Shown in pieces: positions 18,052 to 46,060 of a stretch of DNA of 64,000 nucleotides. The stretch's first letter is position 1. The number at the start of each line of letters is the position of its first letter. Source of the stretch: Micromonospora ureilytica (GTDB taxonomy: Bacteria > Actinomycetota > Actinomycetes > Mycobacteriales > Micromonosporaceae); contig NZ_JADOTX010000001.1 of assembly GCF_015751765.1 (NCBI RefSeq), positions 4,712,001 through 4,776,000 of the forward strand, written 5' to 3'. The notes beneath the pieces are model-generated. The model was not told the DNA's origin. It did not search any database and saw only the letters and a list, made by a program, of their open reading frames with translations. The position numbers and the translations under genes are program-made.

Positions 18052-18127
18052 GGGGCCGGGGCCGACCGTGCCCGGCGGAGGGATCAAGCCTGACCGCCCA
18101 GAGCCGGGCACGGTCGGCCCCGGCCCC
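18052..18127 (-). repeat. Intercistronic stem-loop element, copy 1
   Basis: A perfect 24-bp inverted repeat (18052-18075 and 18104-18127) encloses a 28-base loop containing GGATCAAGCCTGACCGCC (plus-strand reading). It begins 28 bases beyond the cytidine deaminase stop on the minus strand. CCGCAACCAA lies next to it at 18131-18140. Copy 2 at 45989-46060 has the same 21-base loop core (18079-18099 here), the same flanking decamer and an unrelated but equally perfect stem. It could act as a terminator or a processing/stability element. Confidence 0.85.
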
Positions 18128-18154
18128 CAACCGCAACCAACCCAAACCCCAAGC

Positions 18155-18865
18155 TCAACCAGCAGCCCAGCGCACCGGGATCTCAGCCGGCGGCTCACCC
18201 TCGCCGGCCCAGAAGATGGTGCCGGTCGCGTCGACCACCACCACACGGGGAGTCCGGGCCAAGCCCCAGGTGATCGCCTCGGCCGGGTCGTCCCAGCTCG
18301 GCGCCTCCTCCAGCACGCCGGTCTCGGCGCCGGCGTCGTCACCGGCCGACCGCTCCCAGTACGCGGTCCAGACCTGCTGGCCGGCGGACATGTCCGGGTG
18401 CACGAAGACGGTGCCGCGCCCGCGCCAGGCAGCGAGCCGTTCCGGGACCACCGGCACCGGCGTCTCCCCGGTAACGGCCTCCAGGTCCTCCACGCCGAAG
18501 GCGTGCGGTAGCAGCTCGGCCATCCGCAGGGGCCGGGTCTTGCTCTCGATCAGGCACTCCGGCCCGCCGTTCTCCCAGAGCAGCTGCCGGCAGCGACCAC
18601 ACGGCATCAGCGGCTCACCGGTGGCGTCGACGCAGGACAACGCGACGAGTCGGCCTCCGCCGGTGGCGTGCAGGCTGGAAACGACCCCGCACTCGGCGCA
18701 CAGCGTCACCCCGTACGCGGCGTTCTCCACGTTGCAGCCGACCACCACACGGCCGTCGTCGACCAGCGCGGCCGCGCCGACCGGAAACGTCGAGTACGGC
18801 GCGTACGCGTGCCGCATCGCCTCGGTGGCGGCGGCACGCAGCCGCGCCCAGTCAATGTCGGTCAT
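18155..18865 (-). CDS. cdd: Cytidine deaminase with C-terminal extension
   Basis: 236 residues, about 100 longer than ordinary homotetrameric cytidine deaminases. Residues 1-~130 hold the enzyme: CAECG supplies the first zinc Cys and catalytic Glu, and PCGRCRQ gives the other two Cys, preceded by NVENAAYG. Residues ~135-236 form an extra segment (VFVHPDMSAGQQVWTAYW, then RTPRVVVVDATGTIFWAGEGEPP) that I do not recognise. It deaminates cytidine and deoxycytidine to uridine and deoxyuridine, feeding the downstream phosphorylase. The extension shows Trp-rich, ordered-looking sequence and is probably a real domain. Confidence 0.88.
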   Translation of the reverse strand: MTDIDWARLRAAATEAMRHAYAPYSTFPVGAAALVDDGRVVVGCNVENAAYGVTLCAECGVVSSLHATGGGRLVALSCVDATGEPLMPCGRCRQLLWENGGPECLIESKTRPLRMAELLPHAFGVEDLEAVTGETPVPVVPERLAAWRGRGTVFVHPDMSAGQQVWTAYWERSAGDDAGAETGVLEEAPSWDDPAEAITWGLARTPRVVVVDATGTIFWAGEGEPPAEIPVRWAAG

Positions 18866-18956
18866 GCCACCATTCTGCCCAAGGAGCCCAGGTCAGAAGC
18901 GGGCAGGGCCGGGTACACAGGCACCCTTCGGAGACTCGGCCGCGCCACCGCACCCC

Positions 18957-19031
18957 CTCCCATGATCAGGCGATGAAAAGTAGGTCAGAGACGCCCCCTG
19001 ACACCTACTTCTCATCACCTGATCATGGGAG
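18957..19031. repeat. Long imperfect inverted repeat upstream of cdd
   Basis: Arms 18957-18988 and 18998-19031 pair over about 30 bp with two substitutions and a 2-base bulge, leaving a 9-base loop. The outer 14 bp (CTCCCATGATCAGG) are perfect. A 10-bp palindrome GACACGTGTC follows at 19034-19043. It lies in the 383-base gap 18866-19248 between cdd and the importer operon, which otherwise holds only the terminator at 19213. It is too long and A+T-rich for an ordinary terminator and may be a miniature repeat or operator region. Confidence 0.6.
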
Positions 19032-19212
19032 AGGACACGTGTCACTGCGGCGATCGGCGCACTTCCGCGACCTTCTACCCTCACCGGTCGCCGATGATCG
19101 ACCTGCGGAACGGACTCACGCAGCGACGGTGGCTGATCGGGCACGACAGCTGTTTCGCGATGCGCCACGTCTGGGCGTACTCCTGGGAGGGGCTGGATGG
19201 GCACGGGGCGCA

Positions 19213-19234
19213 CCCGGCGGGGAGGCCCGCCGGG
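19213..19234 (-). terminator. Terminator of the nucleoside importer operon
   Basis: A perfect 9-bp G+C stem (CCCGGCGGG at 19213-19221 with CCCGCCGGG at 19226-19234, GAGG loop) starts 15 bases past the last permease stop on the minus strand. There is no T-run. Confidence 0.65.
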
Positions 19235-19248
19235 CGCGCCTGCGCGGG

Positions 19249-20529
19249 TCAGCCCTTGATGTAGGGCTTGCCGTCGGCGGCCGGTGCCCGGACCCGGCCG
19301 ACCAGCCCGGCGACGGCCAGGATGGTCGCCAGGTAGGGCAGCATGGCCAGGAACTGGCTGGGGATCGAGCTGCTGATCGCGCCCAGGTAGGTGGCGAGCT
19401 GGTCGGCGAAACCGAAGAAGAGCGCGGCGAGCAACGCGCCTGTCGGGTTCCACCGGCCGAAGATCAGCGCAGCCAGTGCGATGAAGCCCTTACCGCCGAT
19501 CATGTTCTTGGTGAACGAGTAGAGCGCCAGCGTGTAGGACGCCCCGCCGATGCCGGCGACCACGCCGGCCAGCAGCACGTTGCGGTAGCGCACCCGCAGC
19601 ACCTTGACGCCGAGCGTGTCGGCGGCGATCGGGTGTTCGCCGACCGAGCGGGTGCGCAGCCCCCACCGGGTGCGGAACAGCCCGATGTGGATCACCAGCA
19701 CCAGGAGCAGCCCGACGTAGAGGAAGATGTTGCCGCGGAACAACGCCGGCCCGAGCACCGGGATGTCCTTCAGCAACGGGATCTCCCAGTTGCTGAAGCG
19801 GGGCGCGCTGTTGTACTTCGCGGCGTCGGTCTGCATCAGCCGCTCGTAGAGGAAGCCGGTGACGCCGACCGCCAGCAGGTTCAGCACGATGCCCATGACG
19901 ACCTGGTCGACCAGGTAGCGGATGGCGAAGACGGCCAGCAGCAGCGAGATGAACGCGCCACCGAGCGCTGCGGCGACCAGGCCCACCCAGACGCTGCCGG
20001 AGAGGCTGCCGAACAGGGCGCCGCTGAACGCGCCCATCAGCAGCTGACCCTCGATGGCCACGTTGACCACGCCGGAGCGTTCGCAGAGCACCCCGGCGAG
20101 CGCGCCGAAGATCAGCGGCAGGGCCAGGATGAACGTGCCCCGGATGATGTTGACAAGTGGCATGAAGTTCTGCCCGGCCGGCGCGGCGGAGACCTGCCAG
20201 CAGAGGAACGACAGCACGAACCCGACGAGCCCGACGCCGAGCACGGGAAGGAACCACCGCTTCGGCACTCCGGCGAGCAGCGCCGCGCCGGCGGCGATCG
20301 TGATGATCCCGAACAGGATCGCCCCGATCGTGCCGTTGATCTCCAGTGCGGCGCCGGCCGCGTCGTCGCTGAGCGTGAACCGGGCCTGCTGGTCGGTGGC
20401 GAGCGCGCCGAAGAGCACCGCGGACAGCAGACCGAGCCCCAGCAGCGTGAGGCCGACCTTGCGGCTACGGGTCCAGAAGCCCTCGTCGACGGGGGCGACG
20501 GCGATGTCGGGGACAGCCATGGTGGACAT
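19249..20529 (-). CDS. Nucleoside ABC importer permease (second)
   Basis: 426 residues, multi-pass. The BPD_transp_2 core starts near 140 (LPLIFGALAGVLCERSGVVNVAIEGQLLMGAFSGALFGSL), with EG as the ATPase-coupling region typical of BmpABC/NupQ or RnsD permeases. An N-terminal extension with three extra helices is present, as in many actinobacterial members. It forms the importer channel with the other permease and takes up purine and/or pyrimidine nucleosides. Its start lies three bases after the preceding permease stop. Last gene of the operon, followed by a hairpin terminator. Confidence 0.88.
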   Translation of the reverse strand: MSTMAVPDIAVAPVDEGFWTRSRKVGLTLLGLGLLSAVLFGALATDQQARFTLSDDAAGAALEINGTIGAILFGIITIAAGAALLAGVPKRWFLPVLGVGLVGFVLSFLCWQVSAAPAGQNFMPLVNIIRGTFILALPLIFGALAGVLCERSGVVNVAIEGQLLMGAFSGALFGSLSGSVWVGLVAAALGGAFISLLLAVFAIRYLVDQVVMGIVLNLLAVGVTGFLYERLMQTDAAKYNSAPRFSNWEIPLLKDIPVLGPALFRGNIFLYVGLLLVLVIHIGLFRTRWGLRTRSVGEHPIAADTLGVKVLRVRYRNVLLAGVVAGIGGASYTLALYSFTKNMIGGKGFIALAALIFGRWNPTGALLAALFFGFADQLATYLGAISSSIPSQFLAMLPYLATILAVAGLVGRVRAPAADGKPYIKG

Positions 20530-20532
20530 GAG

Positions 20533-21909
20533 TTACCAGCCCTTCGCCAGGCTCGTCTGCAACCGGGCGGCGCGTGCGGCCCGGAGCTGGAAGATCGCCT
20601 TCACCAGGGCCGGCGCGGCGATGAAGATGACGATCAGCGCCTGGAGCACGGTCACCAGCTCCAGCGAGATCCCGGAGTACGACTGCATCCGGTTACCACC
20701 GGCCTGCAGCGCCCCGAACAGCAGCGCGGCGAGCAACACCCCCCAGGGCTTCACCCGCCCCAGCAGCGCCACCAGGATGCCGTCGAAGCCGATCTGCGCG
20801 ACCACCAGCGGGGTCAACGCGCTGGCGGTGGAGCCGAGCACCATGTTCGAGCCGCCGAGGCCCGCCAGGATGCCGGCGAAGACCATGATCAGGATGTACG
20901 TCCGGGTGACGCTGATGCCTGCGGTCCGGGCGGCGTCCGGGTTGGCGCCGACCGCGCGCAGCTCGAAGCCGAGCGTCGAGCGGTTGAGCAACCAGGCGAC
21001 CGCCCAGGTGGCCAGCACGGCGAGCAGGATGCCGGCGTGCACCCGCAGGTTGTCGCCGAGCAGTCGGGGCAGCTGGGCGGAGGTGTCCACCGCCTTGCTG
21101 ATCGCGTCGGTGCGGGTCGGGTCCTGCACGCCGTTCTGCACGATCAACCAGGTGAGGAAGTACGTGGCGACGTAGTTGAGCATGATCGTGTTGATCACCT
21201 CGTGCGCGCCGGCACGGGCCTTGAGGATGCCGGGGATGAAACCCCAGATCGCTCCACCCAGCGCGCCGGCCAGCACCGCCACCAACAGGTGCAGGCCGGG
21301 CGGCAACGGCAGCAGGAAACCGGCCAGCGCCGCCATGATGACGCCGATGGTGGCCTGCCCCTGGGCGCCGATGTTGAACAGGCCGCCACGGAAGGCCAGC
21401 GCCACCGACAGACCGGTGAAGACCAACGGCGCCGCGTAGGTCAGCGTCTCCGAGATCGGCGCGAGCACGGCCTGCCAGCCGTTGGCGCCGTCCAACCAGC
21501 CGGAGAACGCCTCGGGGTCGAAGATCGAGCCCTTGAACAGGTTCGCGTACGCCTCACTGACGAGCGTCCAGCTGGAGTTGATCGCGTCGGACGGGCGGGA
21601 GGTGATGTACGAGTAGGTGGAGAGCACTGCCGGATCAGAAATGATCATCAGCACCGCGCCGACAACGATCGCCAGCACCAACGACAGCAGCGTGACAGTG
21701 AAGGTGTTGGCCGCCCAGAGGTTGTCCAGGAACAACCTGCCCAGGCTCGGCTTCGACTCCGGCTCCGGGTCCGGCTTCGCCACCGAGCGGTCCGGCTCGG
21801 TCGCCACCTCGGCCCGTTCGGTGTTGCCGAGCGCGTTCTGCGCGGCCTGCGCCTCGCTCGCCGGCTCCTTGTCCGGCGAGCCGGACTGCGGGTTGGGGGG
21901 ATTGGTCAT
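20533..21909 (-). CDS. Nucleoside ABC importer permease (first)
   Basis: 458 residues. The first ~60 are charged and cytoplasmic, then about eight to ten membrane helices follow with the BPD_transp_2 signature [16 protein letters not shown] and [20 protein letters not shown] (the EAA-like coupling loop). Homologues include B. subtilis NupP and S. mutans RnsC. It overlaps the ATPase stop by four bases (ATGA), so the subunits are made in coupled fashion. Together with the second permease it forms the transmembrane pore. Confidence 0.88.
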
Positions 21910-23567
21910 GCCTTGTCCTCGCTCGCGGAGCCCGCGTCGCCTGCCGGGCTCCCGTCTGGCACGCCGGGCTTGTCGGCGGCGGACGCCGTACCGGGCTTGT
22001 CGGCGGCGGATGCCGCATCGGGCTTGTCGGCGGCGGGTGCTGCGGTGGCGTCGTGTGCCTCGTCCGGGCTGATGCCGGCCATCAGCAGACCGATCTCCTC
22101 ACGCGGAGTGTCCGGTCCGACGATGCCGATGATCCGACCGCGGTACATCACCGCGATCCGGTCGGCCAGCCCGATCACCTCGTCGAGTTCGCTGGAGACC
22201 ACCATGACGGCGGTGCCGATGTCCCGCTCGCGGATGATCTGGCTGTGGATGAACTCGATCGACCCGACGTCGACGCCACGGGTCGGCTGGGCGGCGATGA
22301 AGAGCTTCAGCGGCCGGGACAGCTCCCGGGCCACGATCACCTTCTGCTGGTTGCCGCCGGAGAGGGTGCCCACCGCCGCGTCGGCCGATGAGGTACGGAC
22401 GTCGAACTGCTCGATCCGTTCCTTCGCCGAGGCGGCGATCGCGTCCGGCTTCAGCGCGAGCCCGGCCCCGAACGGCGGCCGGTCGTAGATGTCCAGCACC
22501 AGGTTCTCCGCGACGCTGAACTCCTTGACCAGGCCGTCCACGCTGCGGTCCTCGGGCACGTAGCCGACGCCCGCCCGGAGCACCTTCTTGGGCTTCCAAC
22601 CGTCGATCCGGTCGCCGGCCAGGCTGACCGTGCCGGCGAGCACCGGGCGCAGGCCCATGATCGCCTCGATCAGCTCGGTCTGACCGTTGCCTTGTACGCC
22701 CGCCACGCCGAGCACCTCGCCGGCGCGCACGGTCAGGTCGATGCCGTCGACCGCACGGATCTGCCGGTCGTCGTCGACGACCAGCCCGGCCACCTCCAGC
22801 ACCGGGTCGCCCGGCGTGGCCGGGGTCTTGTCCACGGTGAGCCGGACGTTGCGCCCGACCATCAACGCGGCCAGCTCGTCCCGGCTGGCCTCCGGCGAGG
22901 CGGTGCCGACGGTCTTTCCGCGTCGGATCACGGTGATCCGGTCGGCGATGGCCTTGACCTCGCCGAGCTTGTGGGTGATGAAGACGATCGACTTGCCGGC
23001 CGCCTTGAGCGACCGCATGACCGTCAGCAGTTCCTCGGTCTCCTGGGGGGTGAGCACCGCGGTCGGCTCGTCCAGGATGAGCAGGTCGACGTCGCGGGTG
23101 AGCGCCTTGACGATCTCGACTCGCTGCTGGATGCCGACCGGCAGGTCCTCGATCACCGCGTCCGGGTCGACCCGCAGGTTGTAGCGCTCGGACACCTCGG
23201 TGACCTCGCGCCGGGCCCGACGCCGGTCCAGGAAGCCGGCGATGCCGCCCCTGACCTGCTCCGCGCCGAGCATGATGTTTTCGGCGACGGTGAAGACCGG
23301 CACCAGCATGAAGTGCTGGTGCACCATGCCGATCCCGGCCCCGATCGCGTCGGATGGGCCCTTCAGCTTCAGCGGCTTGCCGTCGACCAGGATCTCGCCC
23401 TCGTCGGGCTGGTACAGCCCGTAGAGCACGTTCATCAGTGTCGACTTGCCCGCGCCGTTCTCGCCGAGGAGGGCGTGAATCTCTCCAGGCTCCACCGTCA
23501 GGTCGATGTGATCGTTGGCGACCAGATCACCGAACCGCTTGGTGATGCCGCGCAGTTCGAGTCTCAG
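21906..23567 (-). CDS. Nucleoside ABC importer ATPase (tandem domains, CTG start)
   Basis: 553 residues if it starts at CTG 23567. The first in-frame ATG/GTG/TTG is GTG 23495, which would delete the N-terminal strand ([14 protein letters not shown]) needed before Walker [10 protein letters not shown], and there is no earlier canonical start before an in-frame TAG. AGGAGG sits five bases ahead of the CTG. Two ABC domains follow; the second has Walker A-like [10 protein letters not shown], signature LSGGNQQK and Walker B-like [12 protein letters not shown], as in sugar/nucleoside CUT2-type ATPases. The C-terminal ~45 residues hold Ala/Asp-rich ADKPG repeats. It energises uptake with both permeases. 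Confidence 0.85.
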
Positions 23568-23572
23568 CGCAA

Positions 23573-23578
23573 CCTCCT
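23573..23578 (-). promoter_or_regulatory. AGGAGG ribosome site deciding the CTG start
   Basis: On the minus strand a perfect AGGAGG is followed by TTGCG and CTG. TTG also occurs within that spacer but is out of frame and closes at once (TTG CGC TGA). The site therefore points to CTG 23567 as the ATPase start. Confidence 0.65.
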
Positions 23579-23757
23579 GGAGTGCGAGCGATGGTGCAGC
23601 CTAGCTGCCGTGGAACCGGCCGGATCGGACCGGCCGCCGTGGTGCGCGATCGGCCGCTCCGACCCCGCGGGGCACCCGCAGAGCCGGAGCGGCCGATCGG
23701 TCGTACCTGTCCCCCGCCGACCCTCCCGATGATCGCATCGGAGGGGCCGGCCGGTCG

Positions 23758-24843
23758 TCACTTGGTCGGCTGGGCCTTCGAGGTGACGGTGATGGTGCCG
23801 GCGGCGATGTCCGCCTTGATCTTGTCGACCTCGGCCTTCAGCTCGGCCGGAACCTTGCTGTCGAAGTCGTGGTACGGGGCGATCGAGACACCGTTGTTGG
23901 CCAGGGTGCCGACGAAGCCCGGCTTGGCCGGCAGCTTGTCACCGGCGGCGGCCTTCACCACGGCCTCCTTGACGGCGTCCGGGATGTTCTTGACCACCGT
24001 GGTGATGATCGCTGAGCAGTCCGGGGTGCTCTCGCAGCCGTCGACGTCCACCCAGATGGTGCTGTACTTGCCACCCGACGCCTTGGCCGCGGCCGTGGTG
24101 CCGAGGCCGGAGCCGCCGGCGACCGGCATGATGATGTCCGCGCCCTGGGCGACCAGCGCGTCGGAAACCTTCTTGCCCTCGTCCTGCTTGGCGAAGTCGT
24201 TGGTGAAGGAGCCCTTCTGAGTCTCCTTGTTCCAACCCAGCGCCTGGACGTTCTTGCCCTTGGTGGTGTTGAAGTACTTCACACCGTCGACGAAGCCGTC
24301 CATGAAGATGGTCACCGGCGGGATCGGCAGACCACCGTAGGTGCCCACCTTGCCGGACTTGCTCATCCCGGCGGCCAGGTAACCGGCCTGGAACGCGGCC
24401 TGGGCGGTGTCGAACTGCATCGGGTAGACGTTGGCGTCACCAGTGTTCGCGTCGACGATGCCGAACTCCTGGTTCGGGTTCGCCTTGGCGATCTTCGAGG
24501 TGGCGTTGCCCATCAGGCCACCGACCGCCAGGATGAAGTCGCACTTCTGGTTGACGTACTGCGTCAGGTTCGGCTCGTAGTCGGCCTCCGCCTTCGACGC
24601 GACGAACTTGATGTCGATGTTGTCGTTGGCGGCCTTGGCCTCCTGCAGACCCTTCCAGGCCGAGGTGTTGAACGACTTGTCGTCGATGCCGCCGACGTCG
24701 GTCACCATGCAGGCGCTGAACTTCTTGGCGCCACTGCCGGCGTTGTTGTCATCCTTGGGCGCCTCGCCACAAGCGGCGGCGGTGAGCGCGAGCCCACCCA
24801 CCGCGAAGATCGAGGCGATCCGCATCCCACGCACCGAGCGCAA
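23758..24843 (-). CDS. BMP-family nucleoside-binding lipoprotein
   Basis: 361 residues from the TTG at 24843, which AAGGAG precedes by five bases. A short Arg-containing start, a hydrophobic stretch (IASIFAVGGLALTAAAC) and a Cys suited to lipidation form a lipoprotein signal. The mature BMP/PnrA fold shows VTDVGGIDDKSFN near 40, the hinge segment FILAVGGLMGNA and ADIIMPVAGGSGLG. PnrA and BmpA relatives bind purine nucleosides. It is the first gene of the importer operon, 190 bases ahead of the ATPase, a gap that may permit higher expression of the binding protein. The precise nucleoside preference cannot be read from sequence. Confidence 0.9.
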   Translation of the reverse strand: MRSVRGMRIASIFAVGGLALTAAACGEAPKDDNNAGSGAKKFSACMVTDVGGIDDKSFNTSAWKGLQEAKAANDNIDIKFVASKAEADYEPNLTQYVNQKCDFILAVGGLMGNATSKIAKANPNQEFGIVDANTGDANVYPMQFDTAQAAFQAGYLAAGMSKSGKVGTYGGLPIPPVTIFMDGFVDGVKYFNTTKGKNVQALGWNKETQKGSFTNDFAKQDEGKKVSDALVAQGADIIMPVAGGSGLGTTAAAKASGGKYSTIWVDVDGCESTPDCSAIITTVVKNIPDAVKEAVVKAAAGDKLPAKPGFVGTLANNGVSIAPYHDFDSKVPAELKAEVDKIKADIAAGTITVTSKAQPTK

Positions 24844-24971
24844 GACGTCTCCTTCCCATTGCACACCGCGCCTTGTGCGGTGGCAGCCCATCAGCCGACC
24901 TGCGGGTGTGCCGCCGGCTGTCCCACGTTACGGACGGGAGCGTACGCCCGCGCCCACCCACCGGCCGACAA

Positions 24972-25010
24972 TCGTGCACGACTGTTGAGCGCCTGTTACC
25001 CGGGTGTAAC
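24972..25010. promoter_or_regulatory. Palindromes upstream of the importer operon
   Basis: Two dyads lie 130-170 bases upstream of the lipoprotein gene: TCGTGCACGA (24972-24981) and GTTAC-N6-GTAAC (24995-25010). They are plausible operators for a nucleoside-responsive regulator, but no cognate regulator is adjacent and the promoter itself is not obvious. Confidence 0.35.
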
Positions 25011-25065
25011 CCTTGCGTGGGGCACGTCACTCTTCGTGCTGGCAAGCGAGCGCCGGGGCGTCCGC

Positions 25066-25104
25066 AACGTCCGTTTTCTGGAGGCGATTTCCACCTCGGA
25101 CGTT
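25066..25104 (-). terminator. Possible terminator of the small membrane protein gene
   Basis: AACGTCCG (25066-25073) pairs with CGGACGTT (25097-25104), with an inner GAGG/CCTC pairing. The right arm touches the stop codon of the minus-strand gene at 25103. Weak but suitably placed. Confidence 0.4.
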
Positions 25105-26434: not shown

Positions 26435-26440
26435 GCCGCC

Positions 26441-38567: not shown

Positions 38568-38700
38568 CTGCCCGCTCCCGTCGCCTCGCCGCGCTGCCCG
38601 CAGGGGCATGATCCGCCGCGACTCGCGCCGCCGGTCGCGGCACGCCGAAAGGCGCAGACTACCGGCCCGCTGTTTCCGATTCGGGTACGCCCCGCCCGGC

Positions 38701-39291
38701 TCAGCTGCCGTGGTAGAGGTTCTGGGTCGGCTCCACGCCCTTGATGATCACCGACTCCACCACATCGGCAGCCCGGTCCACCAGGAAATCCAGCTCCTTG
38801 CGCTCGGCCGCGCCGAAATCCGACAGCACATAATCCGCCGGATCCTGCCGCCCCGGCGGTCGACCGACGCCGAACCGCACCCGGGCGTAGTCCTTCGTCC
38901 CCAGCGACTTCGACATCGAACGCAGGCCGTTGTGCCCGCCCTCGCCACCGCCGAACTTGATCCGCACCTGACCGAACTCGATGTCCAGCTCGTCATGCAC
39001 CGCGATCACCTGCGTGGTCGGCACCTTGTAGAACTGCGCCAACGCCGCGACCGGCCCGCCGGAGAGGTTCATGTACGTCAAGGGCTTCACGAGCACCAGC
39101 TTCGGCCCACCGAACCCCAGTCGCGCCTCGGCGACCTCGGCCACCGCCCGCTTGTGCCGGCCGAAACGCGCACTCACCCGCCCGGCCAGCAGATCAGCCA
39201 CCATGAACCCGACGTTGTGCCGGTTCCCGGCGTACTCCCGACCCGGGTTGCCCAGGCCGACCACCAACCACGGCCCCGCCTCGTCCGTCAC
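38701..39291 (-). CDS. pth: Peptidyl-tRNA hydrolase
   Basis: 196 residues from the GTG at 39291 (GAAGGGA upstream). Catalytic His lies in GNPGREYAGNRHNVGFM near 20, and KPLTYMNLSGGPV, HDELDIEFG and GGEGGHNGLRS are all conserved. It releases peptides from stalled peptidyl-tRNA. The order rplY then pth on the minus strand is the common actinobacterial arrangement. A terminator-like hairpin at 39335 separates the two. Confidence 0.95.
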   Translation of the reverse strand: MTDEAGPWLVVGLGNPGREYAGNRHNVGFMVADLLAGRVSARFGRHKRAVAEVAEARLGFGGPKLVLVKPLTYMNLSGGPVAALAQFYKVPTTQVIAVHDELDIEFGQVRIKFGGGEGGHNGLRSMSKSLGTKDYARVRFGVGRPPGRQDPADYVLSDFGAAERKELDFLVDRAADVVESVIIKGVEPTQNLYHGS

Positions 39292-39334
39292 GACCCGTCC
39301 CTTCCGACGCCCATCCCACCGACTCCCGATATGC

Positions 39335-39370
39335 CGACAGGCGCCCCCGAACATTCGGGGACGCCTGTCG
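39335..39370 (-). terminator. Hairpin terminator after rplY
   Basis: A 16-bp stem with a single mismatch (39335-39350 and 39355-39370) and an ACAT loop begins 16 bases past the rplY stop. It should reduce readthrough into pth. Confidence 0.75.
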
Positions 39371-39385
39371 CACAGTACGAACCGA

Positions 39386-40075
39386 TCAGGCCTCGGTGCG
39401 CGCCTCGGTCGTCTCGGCGCCCTCGGCGGTGTCCGCGCCCTCGGAGCCCTCGGTGGTCTCGCCGGCCTCGGCCTCGGCCTCGTCGGTGGCAGTCTCGACC
39501 TCGGGCAGCGTCGCCTCGAGCTGCTCGGCGGTCGGGGCGGCGGTGATCGACGCGACGGTCAGCTCCGAGTCGACGGCCAGCTCGACGCCGCTCGGCAGCG
39601 CGACGTCACCAGCGGTCACCAGGGTGCCCGCCTCCAGGCCCTCGATCGACGCCTCGAGGTGGTCCGGAACCTTGGTGGCGTCCGCGGTCACCGAGAGGGT
39701 GTCGTGGTCGTGCACGATCAGGGTGTCGCGGGCGGCCTCGCCGGTCAGCTGGACCGGAACGTCGACGGTGACCTTCTCGCCCCGGCGAACCAGGATCAGG
39801 TCGACGTGCTCGAAGGTGTCGCGGATCGGGTCACGCTGGATCGCCTTCGGCAGCGCCAGCACCTGGGTGCCGTCGGTGATGTCGATCGCGAAGAGCTGGT
39901 TGGCACCGCCCTTGCGGATCGCGGCGGCGAACTCCCGCGACGGCAGCGCGATGTGCTTGGGCTTCTCGCCGTGGCCGTACAGCACGGCGGGCACCTTGCC
40001 GGCCCGGCGGGTACGGCGGGCACCACCCTTGCCGAACTCGGTGCGGGGCTCGGCGCTGATCTTTACCTCGGACAC
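39386..40075 (-). CDS. rplY: 50S ribosomal protein L25 (CTC type)
   Basis: 229 residues from the GTG at 40075 with AGGAG upstream; a longer frame to 40303 has no family support. The N-terminal 5S-rRNA-binding L25 domain has EFGKGGARRTRRAGKVPAVLYG, and the second TL5/CTC beta domain ends near 185. The C-terminal ~45 residues are Glu/Thr/Ala-rich and acidic, typical of long actinobacterial versions. It binds 5S rRNA in the large subunit and is linked to general stress in some species. Confidence 0.93.
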   Translation of the reverse strand: MSEVKISAEPRTEFGKGGARRTRRAGKVPAVLYGHGEKPKHIALPSREFAAAIRKGGANQLFAIDITDGTQVLALPKAIQRDPIRDTFEHVDLILVRRGEKVTVDVPVQLTGEAARDTLIVHDHDTLSVTADATKVPDHLEASIEGLEAGTLVTAGDVALPSGVELAVDSELTVASITAAPTAEQLEATLPEVETATDEAEAEAGETTEGSEGADTAEGAETTEARTEA

Positions 40076-40340
40076 GGGGAAACTCCTGATGCTTTTCGCT
40101 GCGGCGGCTTGTCGTCTAACGGTGCTGGGGCGAGGGGCTCGCTGGGGCTCATGCGTCATGAACGACTGCCCGGAGCACCGCGTCGATGACGGTGCCTCCG
40201 TGCGGCGCTTTTCAGCGGCCCGCCGGGCACCCTCGCCGTGGCAACCGCACCAGTCTACCCGAGCTGTTTCCAGGGTTTCCGGCAGTCCCCGATCACGGCT
40301 CAAGACCGGCGCGTCGGTGGTGCTCCCACCAGCGTGCCGG

Positions 40341-40401
40341 CCCCGTTTCCACCAGTTTGCCAGCCCCGCCCCCGCCAGCGTGTCGAGTGGCGGAAACGGG
40401 G
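40341..40401 (-). terminator. Possible terminator after prs
   Basis: CCCCGTTTCC (40341-40350) pairs perfectly with GGAAACGGGG (40392-40401), with partial pairing inwards, starting eight bases past the prs stop. It lies in the 333-base gap 40076-40408, which otherwise shows only the rplY leader and no supported gene. Confidence 0.45.
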
Positions 40402-40408
40402 CTCAGGC

Positions 40409-41389
40409 TCAGCTCAGGCCACCGAAGAGGGTGGTCACCGAGCCGTCGTCGAAGACCTCCCGGATCGCCCGCGCCAGCAGCGGCGCGATCGACAACACGG
40501 TGAGCTTGTCCAACTGCTTCTCCGGCGGGAGCGGCAGGGTGTTCGTCACCACGATCTCGCTGATCGAGCTGTTCTTCAGCCGCTCGGTGGCCGGGTCGGA
40601 CAGCAGCGCGTGGGTGGACGCGACAACGATCTCCGCAGCGCCCGACTCCTTGAGGATGTCGGCGGCCTTGGCGATCGTGCCCCCGGTGTCGATCATGTCG
40701 TCGACGATCAGGCAGACCCGGCCCTCCACCTCACCGACCACCCGGTTCGCCACGACCTGGTTCGGCTTCATCGGGTCACGGGTCTTGTGGATGAACGCCA
40801 GCGGGCAGCCGCCCAGCCGGTCGGTCCACCGCTCGGCCACCCGCACCCGGCCCGAATCCGGAGCCACCACTGTCATCGGCCGGCCGGCGTACTTGTGCTC
40901 CACGTACTCGGCCAGGATGTCCATCGCGAAGAGGTGGTCCACCGGACCGTCGAAGAAGCCCTGGATCTGCGCGGTGTGCAGGTCGACGGTGAGGATGCGG
41001 TTCGCGCCGGCGGTCTTCAGCAGGTCCGCGACCAGGCGGGCCGAGATCGGCTCCCGGCCGCGGTGCTTCTTGTCCTGGCGCGCGTACGGGTAGAACGGCA
41101 GCACCACGGTGATGCGCTTGGCCGACCCCCGCTTCAGCGCGTCCACCATGATCAGGGTCTCCATGACCCAGGTGTTCACCCCGTGCGTGACGGACTGCAC
41201 CACGAAGGCGTCCGAACCACGTACCGAGTCCTTGAACCGTACGAAGATCTCGCCGTTGGCGAACTCGTACGCGTCGGCCGGGGTCGGCGCGACGCCGAGC
41301 ACCTCGCCGATCTCCTTGGCCAACTCCGGAAAGCCACGTCCGGAAAAGAGCATCAGGCTTTTGCGGTTTTCGGCGACGATGCTGCCCAT
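40409..41389 (-). CDS. prs: Ribose-phosphate pyrophosphokinase
   Basis: 326 residues from the ATG at 41389. It has the class I PRPP synthase signatures: LMLFSGRGFPELAKEIG at the start, VVLPFYPYARQDKKHRGREPIS with the flexible ATP loop near 97, and the PRPP-binding VCLIVDDMIDTGGTI near 218. It makes PRPP from ribose-5-phosphate and ATP for nucleotide, His and Trp synthesis. It follows glmU on the same strand, 58 bases away, as in most actinobacteria. Confidence 0.96.
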   Translation of the reverse strand: MGSIVAENRKSLMLFSGRGFPELAKEIGEVLGVAPTPADAYEFANGEIFVRFKDSVRGSDAFVVQSVTHGVNTWVMETLIMVDALKRGSAKRITVVLPFYPYARQDKKHRGREPISARLVADLLKTAGANRILTVDLHTAQIQGFFDGPVDHLFAMDILAEYVEHKYAGRPMTVVAPDSGRVRVAERWTDRLGGCPLAFIHKTRDPMKPNQVVANRVVGEVEGRVCLIVDDMIDTGGTIAKAADILKESGAAEIVVASTHALLSDPATERLKNSSISEIVVTNTLPLPPEKQLDKLTVLSIAPLLARAIREVFDDGSVTTLFGGLS

Positions 41390-41447
41390 GGGCCCGTCTG
41401 CTCCCGTTATGTCGGCGGTACCCGACCCGGTGGTGGTGGGTCGGGGA

Positions 41448-43007
41448 CTATTCGGTTGCAGTATCTCCCGCGCCGGATGCGCCGCCCACCGTCTCGGTCG
41501 CCCCGTGGATTGCCTCACTGTGGCTTGCGGCACCAGTCGTACCGGACGCACCCTTCGCGTCGCCGTCCCGCTGCGCACCCTTCGCGTCGCGGGCCCGCTG
41601 CGCCGCCTCCGCAGCGGCGGTTCCGGCGCGCCGCATGACCACCCAGCCCTCGATGTTGCGCTGGCGCGCGCGGGCGACCCCCATCGCACCTGCCGGCACG
41701 TCGTCGACGATCACCGAACCGGCCGCCGTGTACGCCCCGTCGCCCACCTCGACCGGGGCCACGAACATGTTGTCCGCACCGGTCCGCGCGTGGCTGCCGA
41801 TCACCGTGCGGTGCTTGTTGACCCCGTCGTAGTTCACGAAGACCGACGCGGCGCCGATGTTGGTCTGCTCACCGATCGTCGCGTCGCCGACGTACGTCAG
41901 GTGCGGCACCTTCGAGCCGGCGCCGATCTGCGAGTTCTTCACCTCGACGAATGTGCCGACCTTCGCCTTCTCAGCGAGCTGGGCGGCCGGCCGCAGGTAC
42001 GCGTACGGCCCGACGGTTGCGCCCGCGCCCACCTCGGCGCCGACGGCGTGGCTGCGGACCACCGACGCGGCGGGGCCGACGATCGTGTCGATCAGCGTGA
42101 CGTCCGGCCCGATCAGGGCGCCCGCGCCGACCACCGTGCCGCCGCGCAACTGGGTGTTCTGGTCGACGACCGCGTCCCGGTCCAGTGCGACGGTCACGTC
42201 GATCCAGGTGGTGGCGGGGTCGAGCAGACTCACGCCGGTGCGCATCCACGCCTCGTTGATCCGGTCGCGCAGCAGCCGGCGCAGCGTCGCCAGCTCCACC
42301 CGGTCGTTGCAGCCCAGCGTCTCGACGTGGTCCACGGCGACGTGCACCGCAACCGGCTCACCGGCCGAGCGGAGCAGGCCGAAGACGTCGGTCAGGTACT
42401 CCTCGCCCTGGTCGTTGTCGGTGGAGAGCTTGCCCAGCGCCTCGCGCAGCCGCACCGCGTCGAACGCGTAGATGCCGGCGTTGATCTCCCGGATCGCGCG
42501 CTGCGTCGGGTCGGCGTCGCGCTCCTCGACGATCTGCTCCAGGCGGCCGTCGGCGTCCCGGACGATCCGCCCGAGGCCGGTCGGGTCGGGCACCTCGGCG
42601 GCCAGCACGGTGGCCGCCGCGGCGGCCACCTCGTGCGCGGTCACCAGCGCGCCCACGGTCTCGGGGCGCAGCAGGGGCACGTCCCCGTTGATCACCACGA
42701 CCGTGCCGGCACCGTCCGGTACGGCCTCCAGCGCGATTCGCACGGCGTGCCCGGTGCCGAGCTGCTCGGCCTGGAGCACCGGCGTGGCGTCCGGGGCGAC
42801 GTCGGAGAGGTGCGCCCGGACCTGGTCGGCGCCGTGCCCCACCACGACGACTGTGCGGTCCGCGTCCAGCGGGGCGGCGGCGCTCAGCACGTGACCGAGG
42901 AGCGTCCGGCCGAGCAGGGGGTGCAGCACCTTGGGCAGTGTCGACTTCATCCTCTTGCCCTCACCGGCGGCAAGTACGACGACGGTACGGAGGTGGGGCT
43001 GGGGCAC
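41448..43007 (-). CDS. glmU: Bifunctional GlmU (GlcNAc-1-P uridylyl/acetyltransferase)
   Basis: 519 residues from the GTG at 43007. The N-terminal uridylyltransferase has VVLAAGEGKRMKSTLPKVLHPLLG near 9. The C-terminal half is a left-handed beta helix with hexapeptide repeats (GAGATVGPYAYLRPAA near 335). A ~60-residue Ala/Gly/Asp-rich, disordered tail (KGAQRDGDAKGASGT) exceeds the E. coli length and is common in actinobacteria. It acetylates GlcN-1-P and then makes UDP-GlcNAc for cell wall. tRNA-Gln lies directly upstream. Confidence 0.95.
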   Translation of the reverse strand: MPQPHLRTVVVLAAGEGKRMKSTLPKVLHPLLGRTLLGHVLSAAAPLDADRTVVVVGHGADQVRAHLSDVAPDATPVLQAEQLGTGHAVRIALEAVPDGAGTVVVINGDVPLLRPETVGALVTAHEVAAAAATVLAAEVPDPTGLGRIVRDADGRLEQIVEERDADPTQRAIREINAGIYAFDAVRLREALGKLSTDNDQGEEYLTDVFGLLRSAGEPVAVHVAVDHVETLGCNDRVELATLRRLLRDRINEAWMRTGVSLLDPATTWIDVTVALDRDAVVDQNTQLRGGTVVGAGALIGPDVTLIDTIVGPAASVVRSHAVGAEVGAGATVGPYAYLRPAAQLAEKAKVGTFVEVKNSQIGAGSKVPHLTYVGDATIGEQTNIGAASVFVNYDGVNKHRTVIGSHARTGADNMFVAPVEVGDGAYTAAGSVIVDDVPAGAMGVARARQRNIEGWVVMRRAGTAAAEAAQRARDAKGAQRDGDAKGASGTTGAASHSEAIHGATETVGGASGAGDTATE

Positions 43008-43117
43008 GACGTGGCTCCCGTCGGGACGGCGGACACTCTCGCGGTCATGCTAGCCGCGAGGCCCGGCACGGTCCCCGCTTACCCCCACCGGACCCTAAAG
43101 CGGACGTAGGTGGGCAG

Positions 43118-43189
43118 CTCGGCCGCCAGGGTTCGAACCTGAAATACGGGTACCAAAGACCCGGGTGTTGCCAATTACACCACGGCCGA
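43118..43189 (-). tRNA. tRNA-Gln (anticodon TTG)
   Basis: 72 bases fold as a tRNA on the minus strand. The acceptor arms TCGGCCG and CGGCCGA pair with discriminator G. The anticodon stem CGGGT/ACCCG carries loop CTTTGGT, giving anticodon TTG (reads CAA). The T-loop is TTCGAAC. The CCA end is not encoded. It lies upstream of glmU as in related genomes. Confidence 0.95.
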
Positions 43190-43441
43190 TCAGCGACGCG
43201 AGGACGTCGCACGAGGGATGGACATCCCGCCGCTACACCTTAGCGCCCCGGCCGTCGGATGCCAGCGCTCATCCCGCCGCACGGCGAGCGATCGATGCCG
43301 TCGGTGTTCTGAGGGTGGTCGGCCCGCACCTCGGCCGCCCGCTTCCCGGGTCGATCAGGTACCCGCCACCGGGCCCGCTGACCTGCGACTTCGAGCGGTT
43401 ACGCGAAGGCTATTCGAAACTTCCCCGTGCGATCTACGGTG

Positions 43442-43454
43442 CCGTAAGTTACGG
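43442..43454 (+). promoter_or_regulatory. Palindrome in the desaturase promoter
   Basis: CCGTAAGTTACGG has perfect 6-bp arms around one base, and half-sites recur nearby (TACGGTG at 43437 and 43450). A -10-like TAGCTT lies at 43466-43471, placing the dyad over the -35 region, as expected for a repressor site. The remaining 313-base gap 43190-43502 holds only the tRNA promoter side and no supported gene. Confidence 0.4.
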
Positions 43455-43502
43455 TGACGTAGGCGTAGCTTCGTGATCGTTACCATCCCCCTGCGAGGTC
43501 CC

Positions 43503-44468
43503 ATGTCCACTGCTCTGCTCGATTCCAACACCGCCGGACCCGGCCCCAAACCACTCACCGACGGCAGCCAGTCCCCCGGCATCCTGGCCGCCCTCTGGGC
43601 CTTCGTGGTGATCCCCTTCGTCGCCCTGCTGGTCGCCGTGCCGGTGGCGTGGGGCGGCTGGCTGGGCTGGAGCGACGTGCTCATCGGCCTGGTCTGGTAC
43701 GTCGTCTCCGGGCTCGGCATCACCGTCGGCTTCCACCGCTACTTCACCCACGGCTCGTTCAAGGCCAAGCGGTGGCTGCGGGTGACCTTGGCGGTCGCGG
43801 GTTCGCTGGCGGTGCAGGGCGAGATCATTCAGTGGGTCGCCGACCACCGGCGGCACCACGCCTTCTCCGACCTGGAGGGTGACCCGCACTCGCCGTGGCG
43901 CTTCGGCACCAGCTTCTGGGCGTTGACCCGGGGCCTGTTCCACGCACACGTGGGCTGGCTGTTCCGCCGGGAGCTGTCCAACCGGGAGCGTTTCGCACCG
44001 GACCTGATCGCCGACCGGGACATCAGCCGGGTCGATCGGCTCTTTCCCGCGCTGGTGATCATCTCGCTGCTCGGCCCGGCGCTGATCGGCGGCCTGGTGA
44101 CCTGGTCCTGGCAGGGCGCGCTTACCGCGTTCTTCTGGGCCGGGCTGGTCCGGATCGGCCTCCTGCACCACGTCACCTGGGCGATCAACTCGGTGTGCCA
44201 CGTCTACGGCGAGCGTCCGTTCGCGATGCGCCAGGGCGACCGCGCGTCGAACTTCTGGCCGCTGGCGATCCTGTCGTTCGGCGAGAGCTGGCACAACCTG
44301 CACCACGCCGACCCAACCAGCGCCCGGCACGGCGTGCTGCGCGGTCAGGTGGACATCTCCGCCCGGGTGATCTGGTTGTTCGAGAAGACCGGCGCGGCAA
44401 CGCAGGTGCGCTGGCCAAAGCCGGAGCGCCTCGCCGCCAAGCTCGTGAAGCCGGTCGCACCCCGCTGA
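43503..44468 (+). CDS. Acyl-CoA/fatty-acid desaturase
   Basis: 321 residues from the ATG at 43503 with GAGGT upstream; an earlier start at 43473 is possible. The three histidine clusters of membrane di-iron desaturases are intact: HRYFTH near 80, HRRHHAF near 117 and HNLHH near 262. About four membrane helices surround them. It introduces a double bond (probably delta-9) in acyl chains to adjust membrane fluidity. A TetR regulator follows in the same orientation 225 bases downstream and may control it. Confidence 0.92.
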   Translation: MSTALLDSNTAGPGPKPLTDGSQSPGILAALWAFVVIPFVALLVAVPVAWGGWLGWSDVLIGLVWYVVSGLGITVGFHRYFTHGSFKAKRWLRVTLAVAGSLAVQGEIIQWVADHRRHHAFSDLEGDPHSPWRFGTSFWALTRGLFHAHVGWLFRRELSNRERFAPDLIADRDISRVDRLFPALVIISLLGPALIGGLVTWSWQGALTAFFWAGLVRIGLLHHVTWAINSVCHVYGERPFAMRQGDRASNFWPLAILSFGESWHNLHHADPTSARHGVLRGQVDISARVIWLFEKTGAATQVRWPKPERLAAKLVKPVAPR

Positions 44469-44593
44469 AACCGGGCGGATGCACGGGGGTGCCGCCTGGC
44501 AGGATGGCCGGGTGACCGAGCCATGCGGGGGGACCAGGCGGCTCGGCGGACGGGGGGCCGGGCCCGATCCGGGTACGGTCGGACGGCGCGGCA

Positions 44594-44610
44594 GGGCGGT
44601 CTTACCGCCC
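44594..44610 (+). terminator. Small hairpin between desaturase and TetR genes
   Basis: GGGCGGT and ACCGCCC pair around CTT, 126 bases past the desaturase stop and 84 bases before the TetR start. It could be a weak terminator or part of the regulator's leader. Confidence 0.35.
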
Positions 44611-44693
44611 GACAGTGAGGCGACGACGTGAACGGGCACAGCGGAGGAACCATTCCACGGCAGGGCGTCACCGAGCGCCAGCGAGGCGGCGAC

Positions 44694-45395
44694 ATGCCTG
44701 AGGTCAGCGACGACGCGGGGGCGGTTGTCGGCGGCCGACGGTCGACGCCGACGGCGGCGGCACCGAAAGCCAAAGCTCCCTCCCGGGTCCGCATGTCGGC
44801 GGCCCAACGCCGGGAGCAGTTGATCGCGACCGGCCGGCAACTCTTCGCCGAGCGCGGTTTCGACGCCACCTCCATCGAGGAGGTGGCGGCCCGCGCCAAG
44901 GTCTCCAAGCCGGTGGTGTACGAGCACTTCGGTGGCAAGGAAGGGCTCTACGCGGTGGTGGTGGACCGGGAGGTCCGGGCCCTGTTGGACCGGATCACCA
45001 CGGCGTTGACCGCCGGGCATCCGCGCGAGCTACTGGAGCAGGCGGCGCTCGCCCTGCTGACCTACATCGAGGAGGAGACCAGCGGTTTCCGGGTGCTGGT
45101 CCGCGAGTCGCCGCTGATGTCCGGCACGGCCACCTTCAGCAGCGTGATGAACGACGTGGCGCACCAGGTCGAGCACATCCTGGGCGCCGAGTACAAGAGC
45201 CGCGGGTACGACCCGAAGCTCGCCGAGCTGTACTCGCAGGCGCTGGTCGGCATGGTGGCACTGACCGGCCGCTGGTGGCTGGAGGTGCGTAAGCCGCGCA
45301 AGGAGACGGTGGCGGCGCACCTCGTCAACCTCGCCTGGAACGGGTTGTCGCACCTGGAGGCGAAGCCGACGCTGATCACCGCACGGCGTCACTGA
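44694..45395 (+). CDS. TetR-family regulator
   Basis: 233 residues from the ATG at 44694 (GAGGCGG upstream); a GTG at 44628 with its own GAGG would add 22 residues. A basic, Ala-rich N-terminus precedes the helix-turn-helix: REQLIATGRQLFAERGFDATSIEEVAARAKVSKPVVYEHFGGKEGLY spans the domain. The C-terminal helices (LMSGTATFSSVMNDVAHQVEHIL) form the ligand pocket. TetR proteins near desaturases commonly repress fatty-acid genes in response to acyl-CoA, making this a candidate for the palindrome at 43442. That is inference. Confidence 0.88.
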   Translation: MPEVSDDAGAVVGGRRSTPTAAAPKAKAPSRVRMSAAQRREQLIATGRQLFAERGFDATSIEEVAARAKVSKPVVYEHFGGKEGLYAVVVDREVRALLDRITTALTAGHPRELLEQAALALLTYIEEETSGFRVLVRESPLMSGTATFSSVMNDVAHQVEHILGAEYKSRGYDPKLAELYSQALVGMVALTGRWWLEVRKPRKETVAAHLVNLAWNGLSHLEAKPTLITARRH

Positions 45396-45401
45396 CCCCG
45401 A

Positions 45402-45878
45402 TCAGCTGCGGTGCACGTCGGCCACCGGGTGCTTGCGGTGCTCCAACTCCGCCTCGGCGGACTCCGGTGGGCCGACCTTGTCGTACAGACCGGTGCCGAG
45501 CAGGATCAGGCCGAACAGCATCGACACGACCACTGTCGACATCGAGAAGTTGAGGAAGTTCGCGTCGGTCTGCAGCACCGACATCATCAGGATGCTGGTC
45601 ACCAGGAACACCACGCCGGCGGTCAGGTTCATGTAGTGGCCGAGGTTGGTGCGCCGCGAGGCCCCGATGATCAGGACGACCCCGAAGACCACCGAGGCGA
45701 GCGAGAAGGCCAGGTTGGTCCGGAGCCCGAGGGCCCAGGTGCTGGTGCGGGCAAAGAGTGGATCGCCGATCGTCTCGGCGACACCCCAGACGCCGAAGAC
45801 CAGGATGTAGACGCCGATCAGCCCGGAGAGGACCCGGTAGAGCGGCCGTGCCGGATGGTTGACCGGAAAGTGCGGCAT
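45402..45878 (-). CDS. DUF4383 membrane protein (copy A)
   Basis: 158 residues from the ATG at 45878 with a G-rich run upstream; the longer frame passes through a stem-loop element. The family start PHFPVNHPARPLYRVLSG is followed by four membrane helices (about 15-35, 55-78, 85-105 and 115-135) and a charged C-terminus. DUF4383 has no established function. It is a tandem paralogue of the next gene upstream (46080-46535). Confidence 0.85.
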   Translation of the reverse strand: MPHFPVNHPARPLYRVLSGLIGVYILVFGVWGVAETIGDPLFARTSTWALGLRTNLAFSLASVVFGVVLIIGASRRTNLGHYMNLTAGVVFLVTSILMMSVLQTDANFLNFSMSTVVVSMLFGLILLGTGLYDKVGPPESAEAELEHRKHPVADVHRS

Positions 45879-45988
45879 GCCCAGACCCCCAGATGTGACC
45901 GTTTCAGGGGAATTGTCGCCCAAGGCAGCACTAACTGTCCGCAGAACCCCAAAGCCGAAGGGGTCCGCCGAAGGCTGGACCGAGTCAG

Positions 45989-46060
45989 GTTTTCGCCGGA
46001 GCCCGAGCTGCGCAGGGATCAAGCCTGACCGCCCGGAGCAGCTCGGGCTCCGGCGAAAAC
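45989..46060 (-). repeat. Intercistronic stem-loop element, copy 2
   Basis: A perfect 23-bp inverted repeat (45989-46011 and 46038-46060) encloses a 26-base loop with the same 21-base core as copy 1 (46014-46034), read GGATCAAGCCTGACCGCC on the plus strand. CCGCAACCAA occurs at 46067-46076. It begins 20 bases past the stop of the upstream minus-strand gene, the same orientation and position as copy 1 relative to transcription. Confidence 0.88.

Follow-up and report, generated by a model that had tools for sequence, protein, structure and literature searches.

The window examined here, a stretch of 64,000 nucleotides of the Micromonospora ureilytica genome, holds two hairpins with the same tip on perfectly paired stems of different sequence. 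It has long been puzzling that the two arms of a long hairpin can change in concert, and the question raised by this locus is what keeps the tip constant and the arms complementary. The first hairpin (18052 to 18127, minus strand) has arms at 18052 to 18076 and 18103 to 18127 that pair over 25 bp with 100% complementarity and carries the 18-base tip GGCGGTCAGGCTTGATCC, exact on the minus strand, at 18081 to 18098. A G/T-rich spacer of the composition usual in the family (18128 to 18154, minus strand), part of the halo described below, separates it from the stop codon of the upstream cytidine deaminase gene, cdd (18155 to 18865, minus strand; PF00383), while the downstream gene is deoA-like and encodes a pyrimidine nucleoside phosphorylase-like protein (16696 to 17979, minus strand; PF00591, PF07831, and PF02885). 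The second hairpin (45988 to 46061, minus strand) has arms at 45988 to 46011 and 46038 to 46061, 24 bp as read from the sequence, with an exact tip at 46016 to 46033 and a spacer that is again G/T-rich, as in the family, at 46062 to 46079 (both minus strand). It lies between genes for a DUF4383-like membrane protein upstream (46080 to 46535, minus strand; 26.4 bits, narrowly missing the Pfam cut-off of 27) and a DUF4383 protein downstream (45402 to 45881, minus strand; 52 bits). The initial annotation had both copies and their shared core in the right places and rightly called the stems perfect (a repeat finder merged stem and tip of the second copy into a 30-nt arm, 93% complementary), but the stem lengths, given as 24 and 23 bp, are 25 and 24 bp. 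Likewise, minus-strand stop codons do precede both stems, but at distances of 27 and 18 nt rather than 20 to 28 bases.

What had been described as a two-copy element proved to be a family. While the window holds no third match to the 18-base core at up to three mismatches (0.11 expected), the 7.1-Mb genome holds 12 copies, 11 exact and one with a single mismatch, all 12 with stems, and among 250 sampled Micromonosporaceae genomes the family is present in 116, in 19 of 44 genera, patchily and with 1 to 17 copies per positive genome. Chance origin was rejected, since at up to three mismatches the tip pattern has 24 matches in the own genome versus 8 for its reversal; stems accompany 12 of these 24 (the inspection of flanks covered the tip pattern and not its reversal), and the 12 matches with three mismatches lack an in-register stem at their flanks. 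At up to one mismatch, the reversed pattern gave no match in 61 relatives and three in the 250 family genomes. The search of genome and relatives proposed in the initial annotation thus found neither a core that mostly lacks arms nor an isolated pair of copies. A search of the own genome with model R1, in which 150 of 21,911 candidates were scored, matched both window copies. Omitted before counting were the three-mismatch matches (L013 to L024), second copies of own loci (L055 to L067), and elements with fewer than 14 of 20 pairs (23 of 288).

The earlier statement that no known family has this form holds for Rfam and for the literature searched. In the window, Rfam release 15 gave no match at the gathering threshold except a tRNA, and the sub-threshold matches of the second copy were mostly to microRNA-precursor models. 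The literature search, with preprints and most subscription papers outside its scope, returned no recognised description of the hairpin family and no match to the tip letters; the accessible portion of the main text of PMC12306157 contains no mention of Micromonospor-. A phage origin was rejected, the sole tip match on a viral contig being without a stem, and replication strand bias found no support in the own genome (orientations 7 versus 5, taking the origin to lie at the contig start). Nor do the neighbouring genes in that genome, named by sequence reading with four window proteins checked, have an evident common theme that would suggest a regulon.

The strictly constant part of the element is the 18-mer, with GTCARGCTTGAT at its heart, and not the 21 bases first proposed, because neighbouring bases pair in some members. 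The sequence CCGCAACCAA noted earlier does flank both window copies, but family-wide it is no constant part, being one variant of a changeable G/T-rich spacer (GGTTGCGG when read on the opposite strand). Since most loci were found by tip search, tip conservation is biased upward in those loci; in three sets of orthologues found by protein and read from the sequences, the tip is exact in 13 of 14 elements for cdd, in 11 of 15 for DUF4383 (including one cut, L331, and two altered, L336 and L354), and in 7 of 7 for DedA-like genes. Stems are mostly 23 to 27 bp long, with at least 14 of 20 pairs in one register for 265 of 288 tips. Their sequences are unrelated between lineages, but those of one genome group into a small number of related families, which limits the description of the stems as unrelated to the window pair and to comparisons between genera. 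Stem pairing is certainly conserved: double changes occur in 24 of 26 pair columns of alignment A2, a count biased for pairing because well-paired members were picked (45 of 203 candidates, at least 19 of 20 pairs; four of nine named seeds, L077, L025, L217, and L285, failed the filter). In 141 of 159 cases, the tip strand is the sense strand just past a stop codon, with a median of 50 nt from stop codon to tip (50 nt or less in 71 of the 141). The gene calls behind these figures come from a GC-frame script that was compared with the open reading frame list on one stretch and fails in low-GC DNA; at L077 and L082, which lie in such DNA and where the lists were inspected, the tip strand does not follow a gene end.

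Around the element, T exceeds A and G exceeds C on the tip strand; this strand-polar halo extends into third codon positions for about 300 bp and is absent more than 400 bp upstream. Third-position T/(A+T) in 199 element genes falls with distance from the stop codon from 0.90 through 0.78 and 0.67 to 0.56, compared with 0.52 to 0.60 in 696 other genes. The pattern is mirrored in 94 convergent genes, decays likewise in 120 orthologue groups, recurs in all five lineage groups, in a second tip type, and in the 12 own copies, and follows the tip strand even where the genes on both sides oppose it (11 '<<' and 2 '<>' groups). Ordinary hairpins are without it. Orthologues with the element show a stronger halo for DUF4383 (p=0.0012) and DedA-like genes (p=0.007), while the difference for cdd taken by itself does not reach significance (p=0.054); this comparison left out two cdd and seven DedA-like loci that were incomplete. 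Gains of T and A stand at 15:1 near the element versus 25:15 far from it, small counts for a polarity, and the halo seems to persist where the element has been lost (L319, L320, and L379). Points against a DNA-structure reading are the weakness of the halo outside Micromonosporaceae, the A/T skew of 0.29 in the coding bin nearest the stem (0 to 25 nt, 236 sites) versus 0.73 in the next, and the 13 of 120 groups with A over T on the tip strand.

The stems bear a polarity of their own. On the tip strand, mismatches comprise 84 independent types of A.C versus 26 of G.U (G.T), compared with 33 versus 46 in ordinary 3' hairpins of the same loci (n=174). The excess rests on the Micromonospora-and-rest (51:15) and Actinoplanes-like (29:6) groups, a point against a DNA-structure reading; the ratios in G068, Hamadaea, and G061 are 1:3, 1:1, and 2:1, all tiny numbers. 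A single mutation type behind it was rejected, as G>A (16) and T>C (11) both exceed C>T (6) and A>G (4), and so was NucS-type mismatch avoidance on the tip strand, which would deplete G.G (22 G.G and 14 C.C were observed).

In 4 of 120 groups, the tip is inverted in place between its arms, the loop inversion expected of a hairpin maintained by template switching. Between L043 and its orthologue L047, the flanks are 92 to 94% identical in reverse orientation and the hairpin is 100% identical in direct orientation, which is what template switching inside a DNA hairpin would be predicted to leave. Loci were fetched for 30 of 41 cdd, 30 of 41 DUF4383, and 30 of 56 DedA-like genomes with a match. 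Orthologous sites differ in presence or absence of the element, and L302, L304, L331, and L333 show arm deletions and duplications.

Halo and inverted tips together point to a DNA hairpin whose arms may be re-copied from each other and whose tip strand would recurrently be single-stranded. The reading that we favour, with a probability of roughly 0.45, is that of a dispersed, strand-polar hairpin element acting as a DNA structure, with putative recognition of the tip, a bare tip strand, and re-copied arms. The tip strand, in most cases the sense (non-template) strand at the 3' end of a gene, would fold out as a hairpin, and its constant tip would be recognised by a putative factor, with the stem as scaffold only. 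Around the hairpin, this strand would repeatedly be left single-stranded, displaced by an RNA:DNA hybrid or exposed by a nick or gap in the opposite strand; either state, a putative R-loop included, is inferred from the composition footprint. Damage to the bare strand could turn the flanks T/G-rich and A-poor for some hundred bases on either side. Within the stem, the folded tip strand would be protected and the opposite strand bare, so that stem errors would appear as A.C on the tip strand, although G>T on the tip strand, which opposite-strand damage alone would not predict, also occurs in stems. Replication would re-copy one arm from the other, template switching being the presumed cause of the perfect arms, and pairing would be kept while the sequence drifts, with the tip occasionally inverted. 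In the accessible parts of the respective papers, template switching is described as creating and mending hairpins (PMC8794818), and RNA:DNA hybrids in yeast as initiating mutations that perfect palindromes (PMC3820800). As for a role, our guess is that the element marks or shapes transcript ends, in a slot where other species have a terminator.

Possibly, the element instead acts in RNA, as a transcribed hairpin whose tip binds a protein, so that the transcript is terminated, processed, or stabilised and selection on the RNA maintains the arms. The sense orientation past stop codons (141 of 159) fits this, as does the ordinary U-run terminator in the DUF4383 slot of 8 of 30 fetched orthologues (read from sequences). 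Folding z-scores for the four strands of the window copies range from -6.3 to -8.6, the tip strand being more stable than its complement (-89.3 versus -82.1 and -69.3 versus -65.1 kcal/mol), and the tip carries on that strand a conserved G.U pair, which fits an RNA and counts against a DNA structure. Yet no U-run follows the stem, the next 20 nt being G-rich with T at 0.16 to 0.32 per position; the element is absent from 16 of 30 fetched cdd-deoA loci, with no replacement terminator evident in most; and stem G.U is rarer than A.C, contrary to ordinary hairpins. Codon halo and inverted tips would also be left unexplained, and we consider an RNA-level explanation unlikely. Of the alternatives offered by the initial annotation, selection on structure and an element that copies its arms, the second gains direct support from the inverted tips; conserved pairing is certain, and plain RNA selection has difficulty with the A.C excess.

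Equally improbable, in our view, is a REP-like mobile palindrome, in which a transposase or relaxase reads the tip in single-stranded DNA and spreads copies, the 3'-end location reflecting tolerated insertion. Dispersal at 1 to 17 copies per positive genome, patchiness among genera, the likeness of stems within one genome, and presence or absence at orthologous sites would be expected of such an element. However, Y1_Tnp, the usual REP partner and the transposase tested, is found in 33 of 121 genomes, and its presence does not follow element counts (none in G002, G061, and G068, with 11, 13, and 16 tips; ten in G163, without a tip), so that a RAYT or Y1 transposase partner found no support. Moreover, many sites recur in as many as 14 fetched species, scars remain after several losses (L302 and L304), and no proven clean insertion or target duplication was found. 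Function of the opposite-strand RNA, as a barrier to antisense transcription or a small RNA with unstructured flanks, is very improbable, for although the mismatches are tolerated ones on that strand (G.U 84 and G.A 33) and the flanks A/C-rich, the skew extends up to about 300 bp into third codon positions, 55 '>>' elements have neither neighbour read from that strand, and the tip pairs worse there. Each of the terminator, REP, and RNA-only readings has a result that speaks against it.

Returning to the DNA hairpin with re-copied arms, a further and rather doubtful step would be that the element makes its own strand-specific mutation zone, the tip factor opening one strand over some hundred base pairs and template switching rewriting the stem. 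A stem continually rewritten in this way might let the element persist across genera and families with little conserved beyond the 12- to 18-base tip. The family supplies some 250 examples with a fixed tip as a mark of orientation, from which arm copying and tip inversion can be followed directly. The halo would be a genome-readable record of where one bacterial DNA strand may have been exposed, and a tip-binding factor, if one exists, would represent a novel type of structure-specific recognition among actinomycetes.

The attC sites of integrons have variable stems and form strand-specific single-stranded DNA hairpins whose recognition depends on structure together with a few fixed bases. The present family resembles them in its variable stems and few fixed bases, although no cassette array was noticed. 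With intrinsic (Rho-independent) terminators, it shares the slot just past the stop codon, the sense orientation, and a stable GC-rich hairpin, but it differs in the missing U-run, the invariant 18-base tip, the G/T-rich flanks, and the halo. Like REP and BIME sequences as described in the accessible part of PMC3733652, these palindromes are dispersed outside genes, for the most part downstream of them and at times in facing pairs, with a hairpin that would be recognised as structure. REP sequences of the GTAG- and CGTC-tagged types, however, have stems of 5 to 13 bp that are sequence-conserved within a family, the GTAG type with RAYT transposases (PMC3733652, in the same part), whereas here stems of mostly 23 to 27 bp are free in sequence and covarying, the tip is constant, the copies are few, and there is no unpaired GTAG or CGTC foot, the bases directly past the stem being varied (GTCG 19, TGAC 17, GACG 16, and CGTC 3 of 238). 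Perfect arms, presumably kept by copying, and loop inversion are shared with hairpins and quasipalindromes maintained by template switching (PMC8794818, PMC3820800). What is new here is the strand-polar halo and the in-place inversion of the tip at four loci. The mutation process described in those papers, in the parts accessible to us, concerns hairpins unrelated to one another, whereas in this case one tip has been kept over several families.

We commit to the reading that the element, a hairpin with a constant 18-base tip on a variable paired stem, is a DNA-structure element. Both window hairpins lie on the minus strand, here the tip strand, i.e., the strand on which the tip is read: one with a 25-bp stem follows the stop codon of the cytidine deaminase gene (cdd) by 27 nt, another with a 24-bp stem follows that of a DUF4383-like gene by 18 nt, and their 18-base tips are identical (GGCGGTCAGGCTTGATCC on the minus strand). 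The initial annotation had described a two-copy element, which proved too low a count: the Micromonospora ureilytica genome (7,096,270 bases, one contig) holds 12 stemmed copies, and relatives hold others. The tip occurs there 11 times exactly and once with a single change, with a stem in 12 of 12 cases; an in-register stem was present at none of 12 three-mismatch loci. A covariance model built from these copies recovered the same 12 sites and nothing else at E <= 1 in a search that scored 150 of 21,911 candidates. One Y1_Tnp (IS200/RAYT-type) gene is present in this genome (G000:C1:2801297-2801656), distant from the 12 elements. The window further contains a tRNA gene (43118 to 43189, minus strand), a tip-less inverted repeat with 32-nt arms that are 91% complementary and 17 nt apart (18954 to 19034), and a second inverted repeat at 14458 to 14506 (TTGTTGACATGTCATCGAA; 19 nt, perfect, 11-nt spacer), which is A/T-rich by the standards of this genome and looks like a putative operator, admittedly a guess.

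At up to one mismatch, 33 of 61 relatives carry the tip, as do 116 of 250 genomes of the family, which belong to 19 of 44 genera and have a maximum of 17 copies each; a reversed-pattern control gave three matches in those 250. An exact-tip search of 396 phylum-wide genomes returned two positives, both Micromonospora. When the order was sampled with 121 genomes, model R2, built from diverse members, matched 15, 4 of these in two other families; among seven tip-less Micromonospora genomes it gave no match in five and a weak match in G010, and G185 has a near-tip. A scan of genome contigs matched at least 120 stretches, and those listed include two Actinomycetaceae loci with stems (L077 and L082) and two proteobacterial tip matches without a stem (L178 and L184). 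Exact tips in distant lineages occur in Trueperella bonasi (L077 and L094) and an Actinomycetaceae metagenome-assembled genome (L082); L077 forms 16 of 16 and L082 17 of 20 pairs, and neither lies behind a gene end in tip orientation.

In a single fixed register, 265 of 288 tips (those with no more than one mismatch and enough flank) are enclosed by 14 or more Watson-Crick pairs out of 20, and among 250 orthology-grouped tips, 132 are perfect across 20 pairs and 68 have 19. The stem measures 23 to 27 bp in 185 of 238 elements; stems are similar within one genome and dissimilar between lineages. In an alignment of 45 diverse members, picked for pairing, both-sided changes occur in 24 of 26 pair columns, and the covariation signal collapses once partners are shifted by one column. 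Two Actinoplanes-group genomes carry a second tip type, (A/C)CCGTCARGCTTGATRT, which keeps the heart, GTCARGCTTGAT; its eight loci (L360, L362, and L364 to L369, in G184 and G202) share an identical heart and the same compositional halo described below, and neither genome has a tip of the first type when one mismatch is allowed. At L280 (G061), two tips stand in direct repeat 59 bp apart. The left arm at L333, in the DUF4383-site cluster, occurs in about three tandem repeats ahead of the hairpin, and the spacers of L028, L030, and L046 are short tandem repeats; we take these as signs of slippage at these sites.

The elements sit mostly behind genes. Of 182 stemmed elements, 159 overlap no gene call and have an upstream gene that was called, and this gene was co-oriented with the tip strand in 141, at a stop-to-tip distance of 25 to 365 nt (median, 50; at most 50 nt in 71 of 141); downstream genes occur in both orientations. 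Occupancy varies between orthologous sites. At DUF4383 sites, 13 of 30 fetched loci carry the element and 8 an ordinary U-run terminator in its slot; L352 keeps the stem and misses the tip, and at L356 an ordinary terminator comes after the left arm. Of the 30 loci fetched for cdd-deoA, 14 carry the element, and arm remnants persist at L302 and L304. Behind a DedA-like gene, the distance to the convergent gene is 191 to 269 bp at six sites with the element, and of 15 element-free sites whose gap was measured, 7 have one of 10 to 29 bp.

Around the elements, the tip strand is A-poor and T- and G-rich in intergenic regions (A, 0.05 to 0.06, and T, 0.25 to 0.30, before the stem; A, 0.11 to 0.13, and T, 0.19 to 0.23, after it), whereas element-free intergenic regions are balanced (both 0.13 to 0.16). 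This halo extends into coding sequence: third-position T/(A+T) in element genes (n = 199) is 0.90, 0.78, 0.67, and 0.56 at the last 20, 20 to 50, 50 to 100, and 100 to 200 codons, compared with 0.52 to 0.60 in genes without an element (n = 696), and convergent genes (n = 94) mirror it (0.17, 0.36, 0.50, and 0.53). When each of the 120 orthologue groups is represented once, upstream third-position A/T skew is 0.29 at 0 to 25 nt (236 sites), 0.73 at 25 to 50 nt, 0.34 at 200 to 300 nt, and about zero past 400 nt; downstream it is 0.45 to 0.65 at 50 to 200 nt, with a tail of 0.16 at 600 to 900 nt. Because the skew occupies third codon positions and declines with distance, we read it as mutational. 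Near the stop codon, inferred fourfold-site changes comprise 15 T-gains (8 C>T and 7 G>T) versus 1 A-gain, and far from it 25 versus 15 (near versus far, P = 0.023). The halo is present in all five lineage groups, with the second tip type, and at the 12 M. ureilytica loci, is weak outside Micromonosporaceae, and tracks the tip strand also in 11 groups with both neighbor genes opposed to it and 2 with diverging neighbors. It is stronger in element-bearing than in element-free orthologues at DUF4383 (P = 0.0012) and DedA-like sites (P = 0.007); the cdd comparison gave P = 0.054. Skew exceeds 0.4 in 58 and falls below -0.4 in 1 of 162 tip-bearing intergenic regions, and the corresponding numbers for 409 element-free ones are 14 and 16; these strongly skewed tip-less regions are possibly former element sites.

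Mechanistically, the tip strand may fold out as a hairpin and the flanking tip strand may recurrently be bare, through RNA:DNA hybrids, nicking, or another process, while each arm would be recopied from the other. In yeast, PMC3820800 ties RNA:DNA hybrids to palindrome-perfecting mutations. The stems themselves show no A/T skew, and their mismatches on the tip strand, tallied once per orthologue group and position, comprise 84 A.C versus 26 G.T types, an excess seen with co-oriented (32:11) and convergent (46:11) neighbors. Ordinary tip-less 3' hairpins at the same loci (n = 174) have 33 versus 46 (difference, P = 2e-6). The excess is carried by Micromonospora-and-rest (51:15) and Actinoplanes-like loci (29:6); the remaining groups (1:3, 1:1, and 2:1) are too small in number. 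Exposure of the opposite strand inside the folded stem would produce such mismatches. Selection on an opposite-strand RNA would give the A.C excess equally well but leaves the codon halo unaccounted for.

The tip strand has more T than A in 105 of 120 groups and more A than T in 13, and 2 are tied; flank tags point the same way as the tip in 67 groups, are reversed in 8, tied in 1, and absent in 44. Tags and skew are both reversed relative to the tip in four groups (L035, L043, L174, and L244). Between the orthologues L043 and L047, the flanks match at 92 to 94% over about 3 kb in reverse orientation, and 71 nt of the hairpin are 100% identical in direct orientation. Such a tip, turned around in place between palindromic arms, is the trace left by template switching in a DNA hairpin (PMC8794818). 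In orthologue sets found by protein and read from sequences, 31 of the 36 readable elements have an exact tip despite its place in the middle of the zone, from which we infer that it is under selection, with a putative binding factor.

Among known systems, REP elements (PMC3733652) are nearest by dispersal and location, and intrinsic terminators by slot, but for each a defining feature tested here does not hold; the presence of Y1_Tnp, the usual REP partner, does not track the element. We rate it as a new form of dispersed hairpin elements, one that would merit a separate class if the halo and the tip factor hold up experimentally.
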